NCBI GenBank assembly: GCA_026874595.1
Contig: CM049316.1
Coordinates: 32,037,339 to 32,101,338, forward strand
Source: Sipunculus nudus
Taxonomy: Eukaryota; Annelida; Sipuncula; Golfingiida; Sipunculidae
Reading direction: 5' to 3'
DNA length: 64,000 nt
The notes under the pieces were generated by a model that saw only the letters and a list, made by a program, of their open reading frames with translations, did not search any database and was not told the DNA's origin. Position 1 is the first letter of the stretch. Every line of letters starts with the position of its first letter. Both the position numbers and the translations under genes were made by a program. This document shows, one piece after another, positions 3,198 to 64,000 of this stretch.

Positions 3198-4186
3198 TCA
3201 TGAATTAATTAATTGGACCGTGCCAGTGTCCAAAAAAATACCTAATTTGCAGAGATCTGCCAGGGATCGGAAGTAAGGCAAGGACCTTTTCACCAGGCTC
3301 AAACATACAGTGTGCTTGTCATACTTTGTTTTCATTTTACTTTGTGTAGATTTTAGATTAGACTTTGCAGTCTCACAAGCATTGGGTTTAGTGCGAAAGT
3401 CTGAGACATACTGCAGTAAACTAAGAGAATCAGGATTTTCACACAAGATTTTTCTTTAAGCAGTTTCAATGGAAATTCAGTTCGCGGTCTATGTCCGAAA
3501 ACTAGTTCAAAGGGACTGAAACCAAAGAACCCTTGAAAGGATTCTCTGACAGCAAACAGCAATAGGTGGATTCCTTCATCCCAGTCTTCCTGTGTGTCAT
3601 AGCAATAGGTCTTAATCATGTTTTTTAATGTCTGGTGAAAACGCTCGAGGGCGCCCTGACTTTCAGGATGGTATGGTGAGGAGCTATTCTGTTTTATACC
3701 TAGCTCAAGCATAACTGGATGGATTTTGGTAATCCAAAAGTTGTAAAAAAGTTGGTCAGAGCTTTGACAACACTTTTGGCATTAATTTTGCGAAATGGTA
3801 TTGCCTCAGGGAACCTGGTAGATGCGCACATAATTGTCAGCAAGTATTCATGTCCAAATTTTGTTTTGGGCAGTGGTCCAACCCAATCAACAATAATCCT
3901 ACTAAATGGTTCCTCGAAAGCAGGAATAGGCCTAAGTGGGGCCTTAGGCGGAATCTGATTGGGCTTTCCTACCATCTGGCATGTATGGCATGACTAACAA
4001 TATTGTACAACATCTGTCTTGAGGTTAGGCCAATAGAAGTGTGTTCTAACTTTCTGATAAGTTTTATTTATACCTAAATGGCCAGACAAAGGAGCCTCAT
4101 TTGCCATGCTTAGAATTACTATTTTTGGGCATTACTATCTGATGTTTGATGGTCCACTCATCATCAGCGCATACAGCAGGTGGTCG
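3198..4186 (-). pseudogene. gypsy-type integrase remnant
   Basis: The zinc-binding domain is recognisable (GHLG, THFYWP, CHTC at about 3985-4090) but holds an in-frame stop before CHTC. The catalytic core starts with the first aspartate in IIVDWVGPLP (about 3880). A short deletion with frameshift near 3700-3715 removes the second aspartate region. The frame resumes with the glutamate segment YHPESQGALERFHQTLK. The protein would have joined element DNA to the host genome, but it cannot be active in this form. Confidence 0.8.
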
Positions 4187-10108: not shown

Positions 10109-14155
<4,047 letters not shown>

Positions 14156-22010: not shown

Positions 22011-22717
22011 CAAATACATTTGACTTTTTACTGTTTGGCACCTTTATGATAGTAGCACAGGAGGCCGTTTTTATGGTTCTTTTTGCAAAGTTGATCGCGC
22101 CGTGTGCATGGCGCTCGGAGTTGTTTCAGAATTAAATCGTATAAAAAACTATTACATTTCCAGAGAACACTATACTTCATGCTTACATTATATGCCTTGT
22201 AAAAGAGCAGGCACCTTTAAGATTTATTATATTAGTGTTGATTTAATTTACTTGTGCATGGTGATACGCAATGATACAAATCGGTTGTTTGATAAAGTTT
22301 TTTTTTAAATATATGTAAACGGTCCAGAGTTTTGCTCTGCAACGAGTCCAGTTTCATACTGGTTGCTGGAAGTACATGTGGACATCACCAAACTAAGACC
22401 ATCATTACATCAAAGAGTCTATCCAAGTCAAAACATCTCAAAATAAATAAATATATTGCCATTTTATTTAATGAATATTAATGTCCATTCTTTAAGTGTT
22501 CTATCTCAAGCTAGGCAATATTCATAAGAAATGTAGCACCTTTAGACATCTTAAAATTAAAATCGTTTAAGTCTTGTAGTTCTGACCGGTCGTTCCTGCT
22601 GCCATCGAGCGCTTAAAATAAGAAGCAAGTTGAAAACATCGTATGAAGTAACAACTGCTGCTCAATCAGATCACATAATGTATGCTGACCGTAACAATAT
22701 ATCTGGGTAAATGGTTC

Positions 22718-23079
22718 TTATCTATGAATGACAAGACGGTTACAAAACAAACGACAAACTTTGACGGCTGTAAATTTGATTATCATACTGATGATGATGA
22801 ACATTATCAAGCCTATTCCTTTTCTGAAAACATATTCTTCGCCAGTAAATGTATCTTCGTCAATATCAATGATGATATCAATAAGGAGGCACATTACACC
22901 ACCACACTGGCAACATAGACATGCATTCAACGATACACCTATAACGTGCAGGACCATCCCGACGACGAGGCCGACCAGGTTAGAATCCAGAAGAATATAG
23001 AGATGTCGGATCGAAAGTAGGGACCAAAAGCAGCTGATATCAAACCTGAAATCTCAAGCAACCAATAAAATAGCTCCAT
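22718..23079 (-). pseudogene. small multi-pass membrane protein, family member 2 (frameshifted)
   Basis: Starting from MELFYWLLEISGLISAAFG with a strong start context, the frame breaks near 22978-22983 where one base is missing relative to the 58.6-kb relative. It resumes as LVGLVVGMVLHVIGVSLNAC and CLCCQCGG, continuing to a fourth hydrophobic stretch GLIMFIIISMIIKF. With the missing base restored the length would be about 120 residues. It lies in a part of copy A that copy B lacks. It is either a recent pseudogene or a sequencing error in a real gene. Confidence 0.55.
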
Positions 23080-24492
23080 ATTCACAAAGTACTCGGGGGT
23101 CTGATCTCTTCAATCCTGTATGCCAGATAAGCTCATTTATAACTACCGGTATATGGATTCTTGTGCACACACCGCATTGTGTTATCTTTGTTTGGTAGAC
23201 GGACGGGTTAATAACTCGAACACGAGTAACCCTGGGAATCTAACCTGGGAAATTCCGCTAAGTCATATATTAAACTATATATCCTTGTTAAAATGATTTG
23301 CAAGTTTGTACCTAGTTGAAAGACGTGATAAGACGGCTGTTTACCAGGCACGTCGGTTGGGCCCATCCTAATTAACGAAATACCTGTCATCGTGTACTAA
23401 AATAAACAACCTTATGAAGCATTAGTATAAAGTATGGTGTTACAGTGTGTGTTCGTAAAAAATTACTGAATGGCATCACGAGGTATAGCAGAACACAGAC
23501 TTCCGCATGTAAGCTTCTGTTACCCACGATCGACGTTTTATATGATTGTTCAAAGCATTTTTTTTTCAGCGAATAGGAGAACTATACTAGGTCGTCGTTA
23601 TGTCCATCACAAAAGCGTGTTTTTTTAACATTGTTTTCTCCAGCACACTTGGGTTCATACAAAACATTGCTTTTGTCATGAGAGAACCAATTGCTTGTCG
23701 TAAGCTACGTATGCATGACATTTCAATGACATCAAGTTTTGGAAGACTGCTTTTATTGGTCCCTGACCCTCATTTATTTAAACCAATTAGTACAAGCCAG
23801 GGTGGTCTGTTGATGTCATTTGAACAGTTACAAGCTTTAAATTTTACACTGACTATATATACATTTTTATAATGCAATAGTAAGGGAATAAAGTCAGATT
23901 TTTTTTGTAAATCCATTATATATTATATTTAAATTCAGAATACATAAGTGTAAATTTCAAACACATTTCTTTCAGACCAGAATCAATTACTCTTCCGACT
24001 GGTACTGACCATTCACTAAAGTTTTACAGCCAAATTCACTTCACAGCTGTAACTGAGGAATAAAACTTTCTATTTTCGCACTACTGTTAGGAAGCTTATC
24101 ATTTTAAAAAGTTCCTATTAAGATTGATACAGGGTATTATAATAAGCAGTCAGATGATAAATCGTCATTTTTTTAAAATTAAATAAAACAAAAAGGAAGA
24201 TAATTATTCAGTCTAAGGCTTGAATTGATTTAAAGTCAACAGCAGACAACAGATAATAAAACTTTTGTTGTCCAGCCTTTCTAGCAAAGCTTATATGTTG
24301 CTCAGTTGATAATTAATTAAGTCATTTAATTTCTTGTAGAATTCGCTGTTTGAAGTCATGTGTCAGCATATACACCTGTCGATCGAATTTTCCTTGCATT
24401 AATTAGTACTTTAGAGTGGAAGCGCTCTTCTATATTGTATTTGTCTCCAGAGACAAATGTTTTTCGTTTTTTTTTCACTGGCAAGTCAGAAT

Positions 24493-28490: not shown

Positions 28491-29483
28491 GAATATATAT
28501 TCAATTGAAACTTTAGAATTATGCTTTGTTGTATAATTCTGATTAATGTCGTCTGTTTATGTACATAGAGAGTACAAAACCGTAAAAAGGATAGTTTAGC
28601 TCTGTTACATTGAGTATTTGCAAACTTTTTAGTTAGTTCAGCTGGTTGACGGAGCGGATATCTTCATACTGCACCAGTTCTGACCAAGAATAGTAAAAAT
28701 GCGCCACAGAAAACCCCTGTGGCAAACCCGTTTGCGTCAGAGAAACAAGCTGGTGCATTTAGCTGACAAAGAAGCCAGTGTGCTTCGATAGCTCGTGTAA
28801 TTATAAATAAGTTAATCTGTCTAATAGGCGTCACTTTTCCTCTTTACCTCCACAAACATGAAATATGTATTTAATTGTGTTCAATTATATCACAGTTGTG
28901 GAGTTTACTGCTTGCAGTTCATTCGCATTTGATAAGTTGGGTCCATTTCTAAATGTAAGTAGCTGATAACATAAATAGAGAGTTGCGCTTGACCGTGGTT
29001 TTCAGCTACACCAATGCCATCATTTTAAAATTCTCACTGTTCTGGAAAAGAATAAAATAGATCAATAAATGTATTGATAATTTATAAATCGAACTTTTCA
29101 CAACACTAGACACAACTTAACACAACAAGTTCACGTGTTGACTAGTTTTTTTTTACATTAAATTATAATTTCTGGCAATATTATATAACATTTGCCTCTT
29201 CTCACACATTGATGGCGAACCGTTCGGATGTCCTGACTCAAGACTGTTGCTGTCATCTACCTGAAAATTCTAGAACTAACTCTATGAAACGTAAAGCATA
29301 TTATAGCGTAACCATAGGATTTTAGTGTATTATAAAATAATATATGCTTACTATAAAAAAATATATGGATTTTTTATATATATATAAGTATATATCGAGA
29401 GAGAGAGAAGTCACAAAAATAATGAAAAGTCTTACCATTACTTGCATAAAGATTGATTATGAAAAGTATCACACCAGCTATCT
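28491..29483. other. no feature recognised (copy B only)
   Basis: AT-rich stretch between the LINE remnant and the third membrane-protein frame. No supported reading frame. Confidence 0.4.
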
Positions 29484-29738
29484 TCATGCCATGTTAGCTC
29501 CAATGATATTGGTGGTATTATTCATGTAAACCAACATATTGAATATCTGGCACACCCCACCAAACCCTTGACAGCCTTGCCGTATATCTGAAGGGGCATC
29601 GAAGGCATAAAGGATTATTCTGCCAATAAGCGCGCCCACTCCAAGAATATAGAACAGAAACTCGAAGCCGCTCAACGGAAATGGATAGACAGTGCAGCAT
29701 GCCCCTAGTATTTCCAGAATCAAAGAGATGAAAGACAT
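29484..29738 (-). CDS. small membrane protein, family member 3
   Basis: 84 residues beginning MSFISLILEILGACCTVYPF with adenine at -3. The first hydrophobic stretch (ILEILG) and the second (FLFYILGVGALIGRIILYAF) align with the other two members. The ACLCCQ motif is replaced by RQGCQGFGG, and the C-terminal half is shorter, ending IIGANMA. It lies in the part of copy B that has no counterpart in copy A. No function is recognised. The short C-terminus suggests either a missing exon or decay. Confidence 0.5.
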   Translation of the reverse strand: MSFISLILEILGACCTVYPFPLSGFEFLFYILGVGALIGRIILYAFDAPSDIRQGCQGFGGVCQIFNMLVYMNNTTNIIGANMA

Positions 29739-45985: not shown

Positions 45986-47046
45986 CTAGTTCCGGCCATG
46001 CAGTCCGCGAGGTATCCGGCCGGCCCGGCTCACGCGTGGTCAGCGTGCGCCCTTGGCCAAGCTGGCTGTGGCGCTGCCAGGGAGCTGCTCAAGGCCTGAC
46101 ACTTCACGGAGGGTCAGCATGCACTCGCCTTGGGCTGTTCAGTGCTGTGTTATGACAAACATAGCCATTTTCACCCTCCGACTCCCCGTGGGGGGGGGGG
46201 GGGGGGTCATAATTGGTAGATTCGGCAACCCTACGTTTTCAGTGCACGTACGTATGGTAAATTTAACAAGACCTCATGATCTCGACCACGAACCTCGACA
46301 GGGGTACAATATTGTGCATGCGGGAAAAACCTGGAAACAAGTATGGTACTTGGAAGATTTAGTTTTATTGAATTACAAATACATTTGACTTTTTACTGTT
46401 GGGCACCTTTATGATAGTAGCACAGGAAGCCGTGTGCATGGCGCTCGGAATTGTTTCAGAGTTAAATTGTATCAAATACTATAACATTTCCTGAGAACAC
46501 TATATTTCATGCTAACATCATATGTCATGTAAAAGAATGGGCACCTGTAGGATTTTTTATATTAGTGTTGATTGTATTTACTTGTGCATGTTAATACGCA
46601 ATGATACAAATCGGTTGTCTGATAAAGGTTTATTAACTATATCTATTTGGTCCAGTTTCAAACACATTTCTTTCAGCAACCAGAATTAATTACTCTTCCG
46701 ACTGTCAATTACCATTTTCTAAACGTTTTACAGCCAATTTCACTTCACAGCTGTAGCTGTCATACAGCGTGGGGAATAAAACTTTCTATTTTCGCACAAT
46801 TGTTAGGAAGCCTATAATTTTGAAAGTTTCCATTAAGATTAATACTGGATATTTAGTAATAAGCATTCAGCTGATATATCGTCATTTTTTAATTCAAATA
46901 TAACAAAAAAGGAGATGAAAATTCATATGTCATTTATATTCTTGTCATTTATATTCTTGTAGAATTCGTTGTTTGAAGTCATGTGTCAGCATATACACCT
47001 TTCGATCGAATATTCCTTGCATTAATTATTACCTTAGAGTGAAAGC

Positions 47047-58620: not shown

Positions 58621-58968
58621 TTACACATTTAAACCAATTTTCGTGTACAATAGATCATAAGATAGAGATATTACTGTAAGCTTGGACACCAGACTGAGGA
58701 AGTTAAATATTAAACCGACAGTTTTATGTTTTACGTCTAATTGGTGCATTTCCATGAAGATGCATGAGAACAGGCATATTGCATCACCACTCTGGCAACA
58801 TAGGCATGCGTGTAATGGTACATCCATAGCGTGTAAGATCATCCCTCCGATAAGCCCAACCAGGCTCAGAATCCAGATGTCATATGCAGAGAAGCTAGTA
58901 CTGGGGTTGCGGCCAAGTAGAGCACATGCTACACCTATAATCTCAAGAATCCAATTGAAGATATGCAT
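58621..58968 (-). CDS. small multi-pass membrane protein, family member 1
   Basis: An open frame of 115 residues starting MHIFNWILEIIGVACALLG. Four hydrophobic stretches are visible, at about residues 3-19, 31-49, 60-72 and 82-98. A cysteine-rich motif ACLCCQ follows the second. The second stretch and the ACLCCQ motif are shared with 22718-23079, and the first stretch with both relatives. Conservation between dispersed copies, including the start, argues that the frame is or was coding. The frame may splice near 58635 to an exon at 58161-58333. I do not recognise the family and no function is assigned. A plausible location is a membrane. Confidence 0.6.
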   Translation of the reverse strand: MHIFNWILEIIGVACALLGRNPSTSFSAYDIWILSLVGLIGGMILHAMDVPLHACLCCQSGDAICLFSCIFMEMHQLDVKHKTVGLIFNFLSLVSKLTVISLSYDLLYTKIGLNV

Positions 58969-58974
58969 CTAGAT

Positions 58975-60780
58975 CAGGTATTCTGTTTGTCGGCAGTTGT
59001 GAATCGGTCCCTCTGGTGTTTGTTGCAAGACAGTGAATATTGGCGTATGCTTGCAGACTTCAGACACGTCGTGGACGTTACTATTGGCCTACGATGAGGT
59101 ATGTACCATAATTAGAAGCGGCGTAATTCTGGGAAACCCAAACGGGTAGTCAATCAAACGCACATCAACACACCGGGCTAGTTTCAGCTTTTGAAATCAT
59201 AACGTGTACAGGTACTAACAAACATGAGAAAAAATGTAAGGCGAGTCAGCTGTCCTCATTGAGTAGCCTCTCCCGTTCCGTACTGCATTTATGTATGCCA
59301 GTATTCTATGCCTTGGTCTTTAAATATTTGTAGATGAAATGTTTCTTTTTATATTCTCCATCTGGCCATGATGAATATTGCTCTTGTCTCTTTATTATGA
59401 GTACATCCTGGATAGCTCCAAAGCGCCGTGTTGTGTTCATTTATTATGCAAATTGAGGTCGAATGGTCGATGACCACGTGATAATAATAATTTTAAGATG
59501 AAATATACAGGTGAATGAACAGTCAGATATGACAGTAATGTCAGATTTTATGGATGATCATACGGACAACTTATCTCCCACATAATTCTGCTTTTCTTGC
59601 TCCCGTCCTAATTGCTGCTCCTGCAGTTTCCGAGGATCATATCATGGTTGTATAACCCCTGTCCTTGACTCCACTTGCCTCTACTAGTTCCTACTTGATG
59701 AGTAACAACTTTTCCTTGAAACATGTAGACAGAATAGTCTTCGGATTAACTTGCTTACCAAGATCTTTCATCTTACTACAGCACATATCCTTAAGTTCAT
59801 TAAATTGATATGCAACTTTTGACCTTAGTTTATCTGCAGCCAACCGTGCAATGACAAGTGTATTGAGAACACTTATATAACGTGGCCTCACATTTTGAAG
59901 CAGAACCATCACGCCGGGTCAAATGATCTAGCTGCATTTTGTAGAGAAACATAAAAACTACGGTGATAAAAAGCATTTATAGCATTTAAACCTGATGGAG
60001 TAGCTAGTTTTGCAAGATGTTGTGTGTTTCTAGTTTTAGGAGCCCAAATATTAAAATTTCGGTCTACATTATTAGATGATGGTTTATGGAGAGCCTCGCC
60101 TTCAGTCTTTTTATTGAAAATAATGCATTAAGGCTCGGCAGGGCTGAAGGTAGCATCTTATTTTGATCCAGTCTTTTTGGGAACTGGCAATTCCGTTGGT
60201 GCTTCAGACATTCTATATAGTTTCAGTTCTGAGCTAGCTGCTCTCTTCACCATGACATTATTGTAAACAGTTCACCAGCTTTTGTGATATACAGCTTTCT
60301 TTGCAAGCATAGTTTTGGCATCAAACATCCTTTGGCAGCACACTTAATTATTTAAAATAAACAAAATAAATACAAAATAGAATTCGTCCATTAGATTTTT
60401 TCTATGATGGCACCTCATTCGTTAACCTGCGCAGTATCCATTACAGCGTGAAGGGTTGTCTATATTGGTTTTACTGCTGCCGTCATACCGCGTCCCCTCC
60501 CCCGTTTGTGTAATAAGAGTTCCTGTGCGGCTGACACGAATGTCTGTTATGCTGTGGTGACGATTCAATGCCAGAGAATTATGTTGTGAATGACTTGTGT
60601 TATTAGCTTGCTAATGGTAAAAAAGACTGACTAGGAACAACTGCTCGAACTTTCTGGAGTAACTGGAATAACACAGGAAAGACCAATACCTTATTATGGG
60701 AGATTGCATCCTATAAAAAATAACTCGACCCGACCATCCGTTAAAAATGACCATTTCATTTACAATAGCGGGAATCGAAC
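58975..60780. other. spacer with an unassigned minus-strand frame
   Basis: Near 60120-59690 the minus strand reads pieces such as NIWAPKTRNTQHLAKLATPS and a 73-codon frame (59691-59912) broken by stops. It may be an old retroelement remnant, but no family is recognised. Confidence 0.35.
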
Positions 60781-60789
60781 AATCACCTT

Positions 60790-63700
60790 AATTTAACACG
60801 ATCATAGCTCGAATACGACCATCCCCGTAACAACCATACCTGGAACCCCACCATCCAAGAAACACGACCATCCCGGTTACACCACCATCCCCGTAACAAG
60901 AACTTACCTGGAGCCCGACGATCCCGGTACCACGACTATTCCGGTAACACGACCATCCAGGTACCATGCCCATACCTTGAGCCCGACCTTCCCGGTAACA
61001 CCACCATACAAGGAGCCCGACCATCCAAGTAACACGACCTTCCCGGGAACACGACCATACCTGGATCCCAACCATCCCAGTAACAAGAACATCCTAGTAA
61101 CACGACCATCCCGGTAACACGACCAAACTTGAGCCCGACCATTCCTAGAACACGACCAACCCAGGAACACGACCATCACCGAAACACGACCATACCTGGA
61201 TTCCGACTATTCCAGTAACACGACCATCCCGGTAACAAGGCCATCCCGGTAATACGACCAAACTTGAGGCCGACCATGCGAGTAACACGGCCATTCCGGT
61301 AACACGACCGTACCTGGAGTCCGACTATCCCAGTAACACGACCATAACTTGAGCCCGACCACTCCGGTAATACGACTATCCTAAAGAACACGACCATCCC
61401 GGTAACACGACCAAACCTGGATCCCGACAATCCCAGTAACACGACCTTCCTGGTAATACGGCCATACATGGAGCCAGACTATCCCGATAACACAACTTTA
61501 CCTGGAGCCCGACGATTATGGTAACACGAATATAAATGGAGCTCGACCATCCCGGTAACACGACCACAACTGGAGCCTGACCATCCCGGTAAAACGACCA
61601 TACAAGGTGCCCGATCATCCCGGTAACACGACCTTTCCGGAAACACGACCATACCTGGAGCACGACCACCCAGGTAACACGACCATCCTGGTAACACGAC
61701 CATACCTGGAGCACGACCACCAAGGTAACACGACCATCCTGGTAACACGACCATACCTGGAGCCCAACCATCCCCGTAACACGACCATTCCGGTAACACG
61801 ACCATCCCGGTACCTTGATCATACCTTGATCCCGGTATCACGACCTTCCCGGTACCACGACCATTACTGTAGCCCGTCCAACCTGGTTATACGATGATCC
61901 TGGTACCACGACCATAACTGTAGCCCACCCACCCACGTAAAACGACCATTCAAGTACCACGACCATACCTGTAGCCCGCCTACCCTGGTAACACGACCAT
62001 CCAGGTACCACGACTAAACCTGGAGTCTGACCACCCCGGTGACACGACGATTCCGGTACAGCGACCATACCTGGAGTCTGACCACCCAGGTAACACGACC
62101 GTTCCGGTTCCACGACCATCCCTGGTGTCTGACCACCCCGCAAACACGATCATTCTGGTGCCACGACCATACCTGGTGTCTGACCACCCCGGTAACACGA
62201 CCATCCCGGTACCACGACCATAACTGGAGTCTGACCACCCCGGTGACACAACGATTCCGGTACAGCGTCCATACCTGGAGTCTGACCACCCCGGTAACAC
62301 GACCATTCCGGTACCATGACCATACCTGGAGTCTGACCACCCCGATAACACGACCATTCCGGTACCACGACCATACCTGGAGTCTGACCAACCCGGTATC
62401 ACGACCATTCCGGTGCCACGACCATACCTGGTGTCTGACCATCCCGGTATCACGACCATTCCGGTACCACGACCATACCTGGTGTCTGACCACCCCGGTA
62501 TCACGACCATTCCGGTACCACGACCATACCTGGTGTCTGACCACCCCGGCATCACGACCATTCCGGTACCACGACCATACCTGGTGTCTGACCACCCCGG
62601 AATCACGACTATTCCGGTGCCACGACCATACCTGGTGTCTGACCAACCCAATAACACGACATTCCGGTACCACGACCATACCTGGAGTCTGACCAACCCG
62701 GTAACACGACCATTCCGGTACCACGATTATACCTGGTGTCTGACCACCCCGGTATCACGACAATTCCGGTACCACGGCCATACCTGGTGTCTGACCACCC
62801 CGGTAACACGACCATTCCGGTACCACGACCATCCCTGGTGTTTGACCACTCCGGTATCACGACCATTCCGGTGCCACGACCATACCTGGTGTCTGACCAC
62901 CCCGGTATCACGACCATTCCGGTACCACGACCATACCTTGTGTCTGACCACCCTGGTATCACGACCATTCCGGTACCACGACCATACCTGGTGTCTGACC
63001 ACCCTGGTATCACGACCATTCTGGTGCCACGACCATACCTGGAGTCTGACCACCCCGGTGACACGACCATTCCGGTACCACGACCATCCCTGGTGTCTGA
63101 CCAACCCGATATCACGACCATTCCGTTGCCACGACCATACCTGGTGTCTGACCAGCCCGGTATCACGACCATTCCGGTGCCACGACCATACCTGGTGTCT
63201 GACCACCCCGGTATCACGACCATTCCGGTACCACGACCATACCTGGTGTCTGACCACCCCAGTATCACGACCATTCCGGTACCACGACCATACCTGGTGT
63301 CTGACCACCCCGGTATCACGACCATTCCGGTGCCACGACCATACCTGGTGTCTGACTAACCCGGTATCACGACCATTCCGGTGCCACGACCATACCTGGT
63401 GTCTGACTAACCCGGTAACACGACCATTCCGGTACCACGACCATACCTGGAGTCTGACCAACCCGGTAACACGACCATCCCGGTAACACGACCATCCCGG
63501 TCACAGAACCATACCTTGAGTCTGACAAGCCCGTTAAAACAACCATCCCCGAACCACTACCATACCTAGATTCCGACCAACCCGGTAAAAAAACATCCCG
63601 GTACCACGACCATAACTTTAGCCCGCCCACCCCGGTTAAACGACCATCCCGGTACCACGACCATACCTGGGGTCTGACCACCTCGGTAACACGACCATCC

Positions 63701-64000
63701 CGGTACTACCACCATATCTTGATCCCGATTTTCCATGTTACACGACCATCCAGGTAACACAACCATACCTGGAGCCCTACCATCCCCGTAACACGACCAT
63801 CCCGGTTACAGAACCATACCTTGAGTCTGACCAGCCCGTTTAAACAACCATCCGGAACCACGACCATACCTAGATTCCGACCACCCCGGTAAAAAAAAAA
63901 TCCCGGTACCACGACCATAACTTTAGCCCGCCCACCCTGGTAACACGACCATCCCGGAACAACGAACAAACCTAGAGTCCGACCACCCCGGTAACACGAC
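60790..64000. repeat. 17-bp minisatellite organised in 51-bp trimers
   Basis: The basic unit is 17 bp, close to ACGACCATCCCGGTAAC. From about 62030 it forms a 51-bp higher-order unit of three types: ACGACCATTCCGGTACC, then ACGACCATACCTGGTGT, then CTGACCACCCCGGTATC. The centre (about 62400-63450) is most uniform, while the left part (60790-61830) is irregular but still in 17-bp register. The array runs past the window end. Because 51 is divisible by three and the unit lacks stops, long open frames arise on both strands. They are not considered genes. Confidence 0.95.

Follow-up and report, generated by a model that had tools for sequence, protein, structure and literature searches.

A partly decayed tandem array points to an old, lineage-restricted family of putative four-span membrane proteins in Sipunculus nudus

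In a 64,000-nucleotide stretch of an animal chromosome of Sipunculus nudus (hereafter the window; C11:32037339-32101338), in which repeats and microsatellites are also present, a 115-amino-acid frame on the minus strand, m58, is best explained as a member of an old, partly decayed and lineage-restricted tetraspan gene family that was shaped by tandem duplication and loss; we put the probability of this reading at roughly 0.65. The existence of the family and its birth-and-death history are highly probable, given that homologues lie adjacent to one another, with intact and broken members in the same array. The intact copy is a putative functional gene today, which we consider fairly probable, and it is presumably expressed.

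The original prediction described three similar minus-strand frames in the window. The 115-residue frame was confirmed, and it contains four hydrophobic segments (residues 3-19, 31-47, 55-71 and 84-100), but m22 consists of two frames and m29 ends at 84 residues (Table 1). A one-base frameshift follows the first segment of m22; the second frame is one base off the start frame, and this copy is therefore broken. The m29 copy was aligned across stops in the genome search as well. With m58 as the query, tblastn within the window (low-complexity filter and composition correction off) recovered m22 with an E-value of 1e-12, summed over two pieces, and m29 with an E-value of 1e-5, in agreement with the predicted similarity. 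The three loci begin with MHIFNWILEIIG, MELFYWLLEISG (m22) and MSFISLILEILG, and their second membrane segments are LVGLIGGMILH, LVGLVVGMVLH and GALIGRIILY. The resemblance to the proposed motifs M..I..ILEI.G and LVGL.GGMILH is looser than claimed. As had been noted, ACLCCQ is shared by two of the three loci.

Table 1. Positions of the family members and associated elements (window coordinates unless a chromosome is named).
Feature	Position	Strand	Basis or remark
m58, intact member, 115-aa single frame	58621..58968	-	ORF list, tblastn, model
m22 first frame, start codon and first membrane segment (MELFYWLLEISG...FFWI)	22982..23079	-	tblastn, frame reading
m22 second frame, segments 2-4 (NLVGLVVGMVLH...ACLCCQ...)	22718..22981	-	tblastn, frame reading
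m29, 84-aa frame, segments 1-2 and weakened segment 3	29484..29738	-	stops before segment 4
m29 segment 4 remnant, MKIAGVILFIINLYASNG	29435..29488 (about)	-	other frame
1.6-kb stretch holding m22	22328..23954	.	in first duplication unit, missing from second
26-base element upstream of m22, TTATAAATGAGCTTATCTGGCATACA	23117..23142	-	also found in +104 kb member; score 32 against at most 29 in 200 shuffles
CCAAT box	59083..59087	-	119 bases upstream of m58 start
kappaB-like element upstream of m58, TGGGTTTCCC	59131..59140	-	GGGRWTYYCC with one mismatch
Core loci (window kb)	22.7-23.1, 29.5-29.7, 58.6-59.0, 76.9-77.3, 104.3-104.6, 154.3-154.4	-	profile search
U59	-59 kb	-	intact 105-aa frame
U29	-29 kb	-	intact 105-aa frame
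L036	C11:31.139 Mb		45% identity to U59, one internal stop
L038	C11:31.142 Mb		weaker match, E 0.22
L037	C3:91292136-91292528		intact 131-aa frame beginning MHW

The loci had been regarded as dispersed. Profile searches of six-frame translations, covering 294 kb that comprise the window and its surroundings, instead placed them in an array that lies on one strand and extends past the window, with six core loci over approximately 130 kb, all on the minus strand. Two core loci outside the first profile were recovered at 4.3e-10 and 3.5e-4. The three copies beyond the window are all damaged: m77, at +77 kb, carries TTG in place of the ATG of the other copies, with no in-frame ATG upstream; m104, at +104 kb, is divided between two frames; and m154, at +154 kb, is a fragment. 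One of the six core copies (m58) is therefore intact and five are damaged. When U59 and U29 are included, all eight loci lie on the minus strand. A scan for small ORFs with at least three hydrophobic segments yielded 12, of which four (m58, the in-frame part of m77, U59 and U29) are minus-strand frames of 80-115 amino acids with this layout; the remaining eight were judged by eye to be low-complexity or unrelated frames. In the genome (1.43 Gb, 153 contigs), protein searches with m58, m77, U59, L037 and U29 gave, as a lower bound, at least eight matches at E <= 0.0012 besides the queries themselves, and all of these were on C11, in the core array, at L036 and at 17.926 Mb. The last, obtained with U29, contains two internal stops. 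Because all strong matches fall on C11, they describe a local array and not a scattered transposon.

The likeness among the core loci reflects homology, because shuffled sequences never reached the score of m29. Scored with a profile built from the three other best members, m29 reached 37.7 bits, whereas the best of 2000 shuffles reached 12.8 bits when residues were shuffled freely and 12.0 bits when the hydrophobic/polar pattern was kept (2000 of each). The result was the same for m104a, m104b and m154a: for each, none of the 2000 shuffles of either type scored as high. Membrane-type composition does not explain the core likeness, and the original view that these are members of a real family rather than chance ORFs is upheld by the shuffles and by the homologous core loci.

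A second group of loci is probably related to this array. The likeness between U59 and L037, which lie on different chromosomes, is firm, as none of 2000 pattern-keeping shuffles was as high; genome searches run both ways matched the two at E-values of 0.095 and 0.23. For U59 and L038, 1 of 2000 shuffles was as high. U59, L036, L037 and L038 form one group, spread over two chromosomes. Its link to the core array is probable: against the core profile, U59 was equalled by none of 2000 free and 5 of 2000 pattern-keeping shuffles. In single comparisons, shuffles scored as high in 1 of 1000 cases for U59 and m77, 569 of 1000 for U59 and m58, 38 of 2000 for m77 and L037, and 1330 of 2000 for m58 and L037. 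U29 shares the size, the strand and the four-segment layout of the family, but its sequence does not support membership against the core, since 450 and 511 of 2000 shuffles scored as high against the core profile. The counts were 82 and 115 of 2000 when U59 was added to the profile, 3 of 1000 against U59 and 971 of 2000 against L037.

The age of the array can be compared with that of a tandem duplication of approximately 25 kb in the window (1308-24210 versus 25937-46925), each unit of which carries one beta-tubulin gene. The units are 76-78% to 97% identical, depending on the segment, and the last tubulin exon differs between the copies by a dS of 0.068 and a dN of 0.003. In a motif scan, the tubulin start motif was found only in the first unit, at window position 10109; the second copy lies at approximately 34000, and its first exon may be absent or altered. 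The junction that corresponds to the 1.6-kb stretch holding m22 is at 46655/46656 in the second unit, with TTTCA at both edges, and tblastn within the window found no counterpart of m29 in the first unit. Because m22 lies in a stretch that the second unit lacks, and because no m29 counterpart was found, the tubulin duplication added no family copies. In the four core pairs that were simulated, dS is about 0.9-1.65, compared with 0.068 in the last tubulin exon; the array is therefore much older than the visible duplication. As its members are old and most core copies are damaged, the array is mostly decaying, which contradicts the earlier description of the family as multiplying.

Selection was assessed from dN/dS in ten core pairs, a check that the original prediction had proposed. 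Four of these were simulated and showed some excess of synonymous change over the neutral prediction: m58-m77 (dN/dS 0.42; 20 of 3000 neutral simulations as low), m58-m22 (0.55; 108), m77-m22 (0.45; 13) and m58-m29 (0.40; 36), values that are to be read with the bias toward low dN that protein-guided alignment introduces. The other six pairs carry no such signal: the ratios were 0.88 (m58-m104b), 0.86 (m77-m29), 0.65 (m77-m104b), 0.99 (m29-m104b) and 0.95 (m22-m104b), and m29-m22 was saturated. These six pairs involve damaged copies. Open frames alone are weak evidence, because a frame stays free of stops under neutrality in 0.017-0.13 of simulations.

Upstream stretches of 400 bases were compared in 28 pairs, with 200 shuffles each. 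Seven pairs aligned at or above nearly all shuffles, the strongest being m104-m154, m77-m104 and m77-m154, which share 140-195 bases; the remaining 21 did not exceed the shuffles. This likeness is more consistent with tandem duplication of the DNA than with retrocopying. The motif RCCAATR occurs at -98 to -128 in five of ten upstream stretches (m58, m29, m104, m154 and U59; for m104 and m154, the start was placed manually), against a background of 2.5% per 100 bases. A kappaB-like site, GGGRWTYYCC with one mismatch, was present in four of nine stretches (m58, m29, m22 and m104) and in approximately 10% of random 350-base windows; by this rule it was not found upstream of m77, m154, U59, U29 or L037. 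The kappaB-like promoter idea serves as a lead only, and the CCAAT box at a constant position is a better one than either kappaB or GATA sites. The latter are uninformative, with WGATAR in seven of nine stretches versus 55% of random windows. A genome search with the promoter DNA matched the place of the query itself and m77, and no other site.

The proposal that these are membrane proteins agrees with the hydrophobic segments of m58 and with structure prediction. Two models (pLDDT 83.3 and 74.7; pTM 0.62 and 0.61) each have four helices and give the product as a predicted four-helix membrane bundle. A simple segment scan assigned three segments to m77 and two to m29. The number of lysines and arginines on the far side relative to the N-terminal side was 3:1 in m58, 5:0 in U59, 3:0 in U29 and 7:2 in L037, and the bias was reversed in the broken m22 (4:3). 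Judged by the charges that loops 1 and 3 carry, both ends would lie outside the cytosol in four of the five four-segment proteins.

The family also remained unrecognised in library searches, as had been suggested. Matches of m58, m29, L037, U59, U29 and m77 to Pfam were all below the curated cut-offs, the nearest being Ceramidase (E 0.0005; 20.0 of 32.5 bits) and BTP (E 0.0014; 19.1 of 25.6 bits), both for U59. No NCBIfam model was matched over its cut-off by five proteins, PHROGs gave no significant match for three (best E 0.032), and nothing was detected among PDB sequence profiles at E <= 5. With Foldseek, none of 354 PDB matches and none of 381 matches in a viral model library reached E <= 0.001, the best values being 0.47 and 0.013, respectively. 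The fold matches do not appear to stand clearly above those of unrelated bundles.

Kinship with the Claudin/PMP22/TARP group was considered and rejected: when two models were compared by fold, TARPs ranked above all other natural membrane proteins, but scores of much the same height were obtained for designed and soluble bundles of four helices (13.9, 14.7). Claudins, PMP22 and TARPs have a long first extracellular loop with a W-GLW-C-C signature. Loop 1 here has only approximately 8-15 residues and lacks the signature, no sequence match was obtained, and the charge pattern suggests the reverse of their orientation, which has both ends in the cytosol. Tetraspanins likewise span the membrane four times, and their segments 3 and 4 are joined by a large loop that carries a CCG motif; in the present family, loop 3 has approximately 4-23 residues without CCG, and segment 3 opens with the cysteine cluster ACLCCQ. 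The best match in the viral library was an uncharacterised 118-amino-acid protein of the giant virus Harvfovirus, A0A3G5A5Z9 (TM-score 0.71/0.69 over 113 columns, 18% identity), which at an E-value of 0.013 is a lead and no more. In its local, one-strand arrangement of intact and broken copies and its lack of known relatives, the array resembles lineage-restricted (orphan) tandem families of invertebrates. Judging from titles, the usual published examples of such families are secreted or receptor proteins (C1q-domain proteins, lectins and nicotinic receptors), and none of the titles listed dealt with four-span proteins of comparable size.

The core copies could instead all be relics of a dead or dying family, with the frame of m58 merely not yet hit by a lesion. 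This is rather unlikely but carries some weight, considering the damage to five of six core copies, the ratios of 0.65-0.99 in pairs with m104b, and the stop-free outcome in 0.06-0.13 of simulations along a one-branch neutral path of half the divergence; the excess of synonymous change in m58-m77, m58-m22, m77-m22 and m58-m29 speaks for constraint, as do U59 and L037, which are intact frames of the probable sister group. It is improbable that the frame is a single exon of a larger multi-exon gene. Plain starts and stops are found in m58, U59 and U29, and blastn of the flanks of eight loci (6 kb downstream, 4 kb upstream) gave no like-placed match in several members, the matches obtained resembling repeats by inspection, although donor-like sequences do occur, GTAAGC beyond the final segment in m77 and GTAGGT in L037.

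An origin as a piece of a transposon or endogenous virus is very unlikely. Retroelement-like and many repeated stretches do lie nearby, and the absence of the 1.6-kb m22 stretch from the other unit, with edges that resemble a target duplication, would suit an insertion. However, the TTTCA edges are equally consistent with a small microhomology deletion, and the flanks of this stretch are not common to other members beyond short stretches. Copies in the genome are few (again as lower bounds), nearly all on one chromosome, with the array on one strand; no transposon or viral families were matched, and a scan of viral contigs with the m58 pattern found none. Membership of a transposon, which the original prediction had named as a possible refutation, thus left no sign in the genome searches, which did not return many dispersed copies with fixed ends. 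Least credible is that these are chance hydrophobic ORFs in T-rich DNA, alike by composition alone. The potential for encoding membrane segments is reported to be widespread in T-rich intergenic DNA (PMC7005711), but pattern-keeping shuffles never reached the core scores, the alignments cover the protein's length, and some copies can also be aligned in their upstream DNA. Chance is refuted for the core six and still possible for U29, in view of its shuffle counts.

Under the preferred reading of an old tandem family, intronless genes would encode four-span membrane proteins of very small size (105-131 amino acids where the member is intact). The family would have spread via tandem duplication of DNA, with some copies keeping common upstream sequence, followed by long divergence under partial constraint and by the present loss of copies. 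As the likeliest function, the compact four-helix bundle, which carries neither a known domain nor a catalytic motif, may act as an accessory or regulatory subunit that packs onto another membrane protein or onto lipid. This inferred mechanism rests on fold matches that unrelated bundles equal, and we consider it unlikely. Even less probable is the full combination of a minimal tetraspan family of this size with both ends outside and loops 1 and 3 cytosolic, shared TATA/CCAAT and kappaB-like promoters, a role as inducible effectors at the membrane or as accessory subunits of channels, tandem birth-and-death, and a sister group of U59, L036, L037 and L038 on two chromosomes.

If expressed, these genes would represent an unnamed, very small four-span family in an animal genome, whose proteins are so short and so diverged that current family libraries miss them. 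They also provide an example of how an orphan family is recognised, in that paralogues alone, broken neighbours included, expose the gene. At present, the array stands as another lineage-restricted tandem family, mostly decayed and of a fairly ordinary kind. L037, which is intact on another chromosome, may serve functional work better than the copies in the window.

The surrounding DNA is rich in other repeated sequence. From window position 60833 to the window end at 64000, a GC-rich minisatellite comprises approximately 52 copies of a 51-base unit (81% match) and then approximately 10 more, and it yields long ORFs in several frames. Retroelement-like frames lie at 3353-3975, where an integrase match (rve_3) fell below threshold (E 0.00036; 20.7 of 26.5 bits). 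From -88 kb to +198 kb in window coordinates, C11 contains dense nested segmental duplications and repeats, with 188 self-matches of at least 250 bases, such as -86 to -68 kb versus -55 to -36 kb and 87-91 kb versus 171-175 kb.
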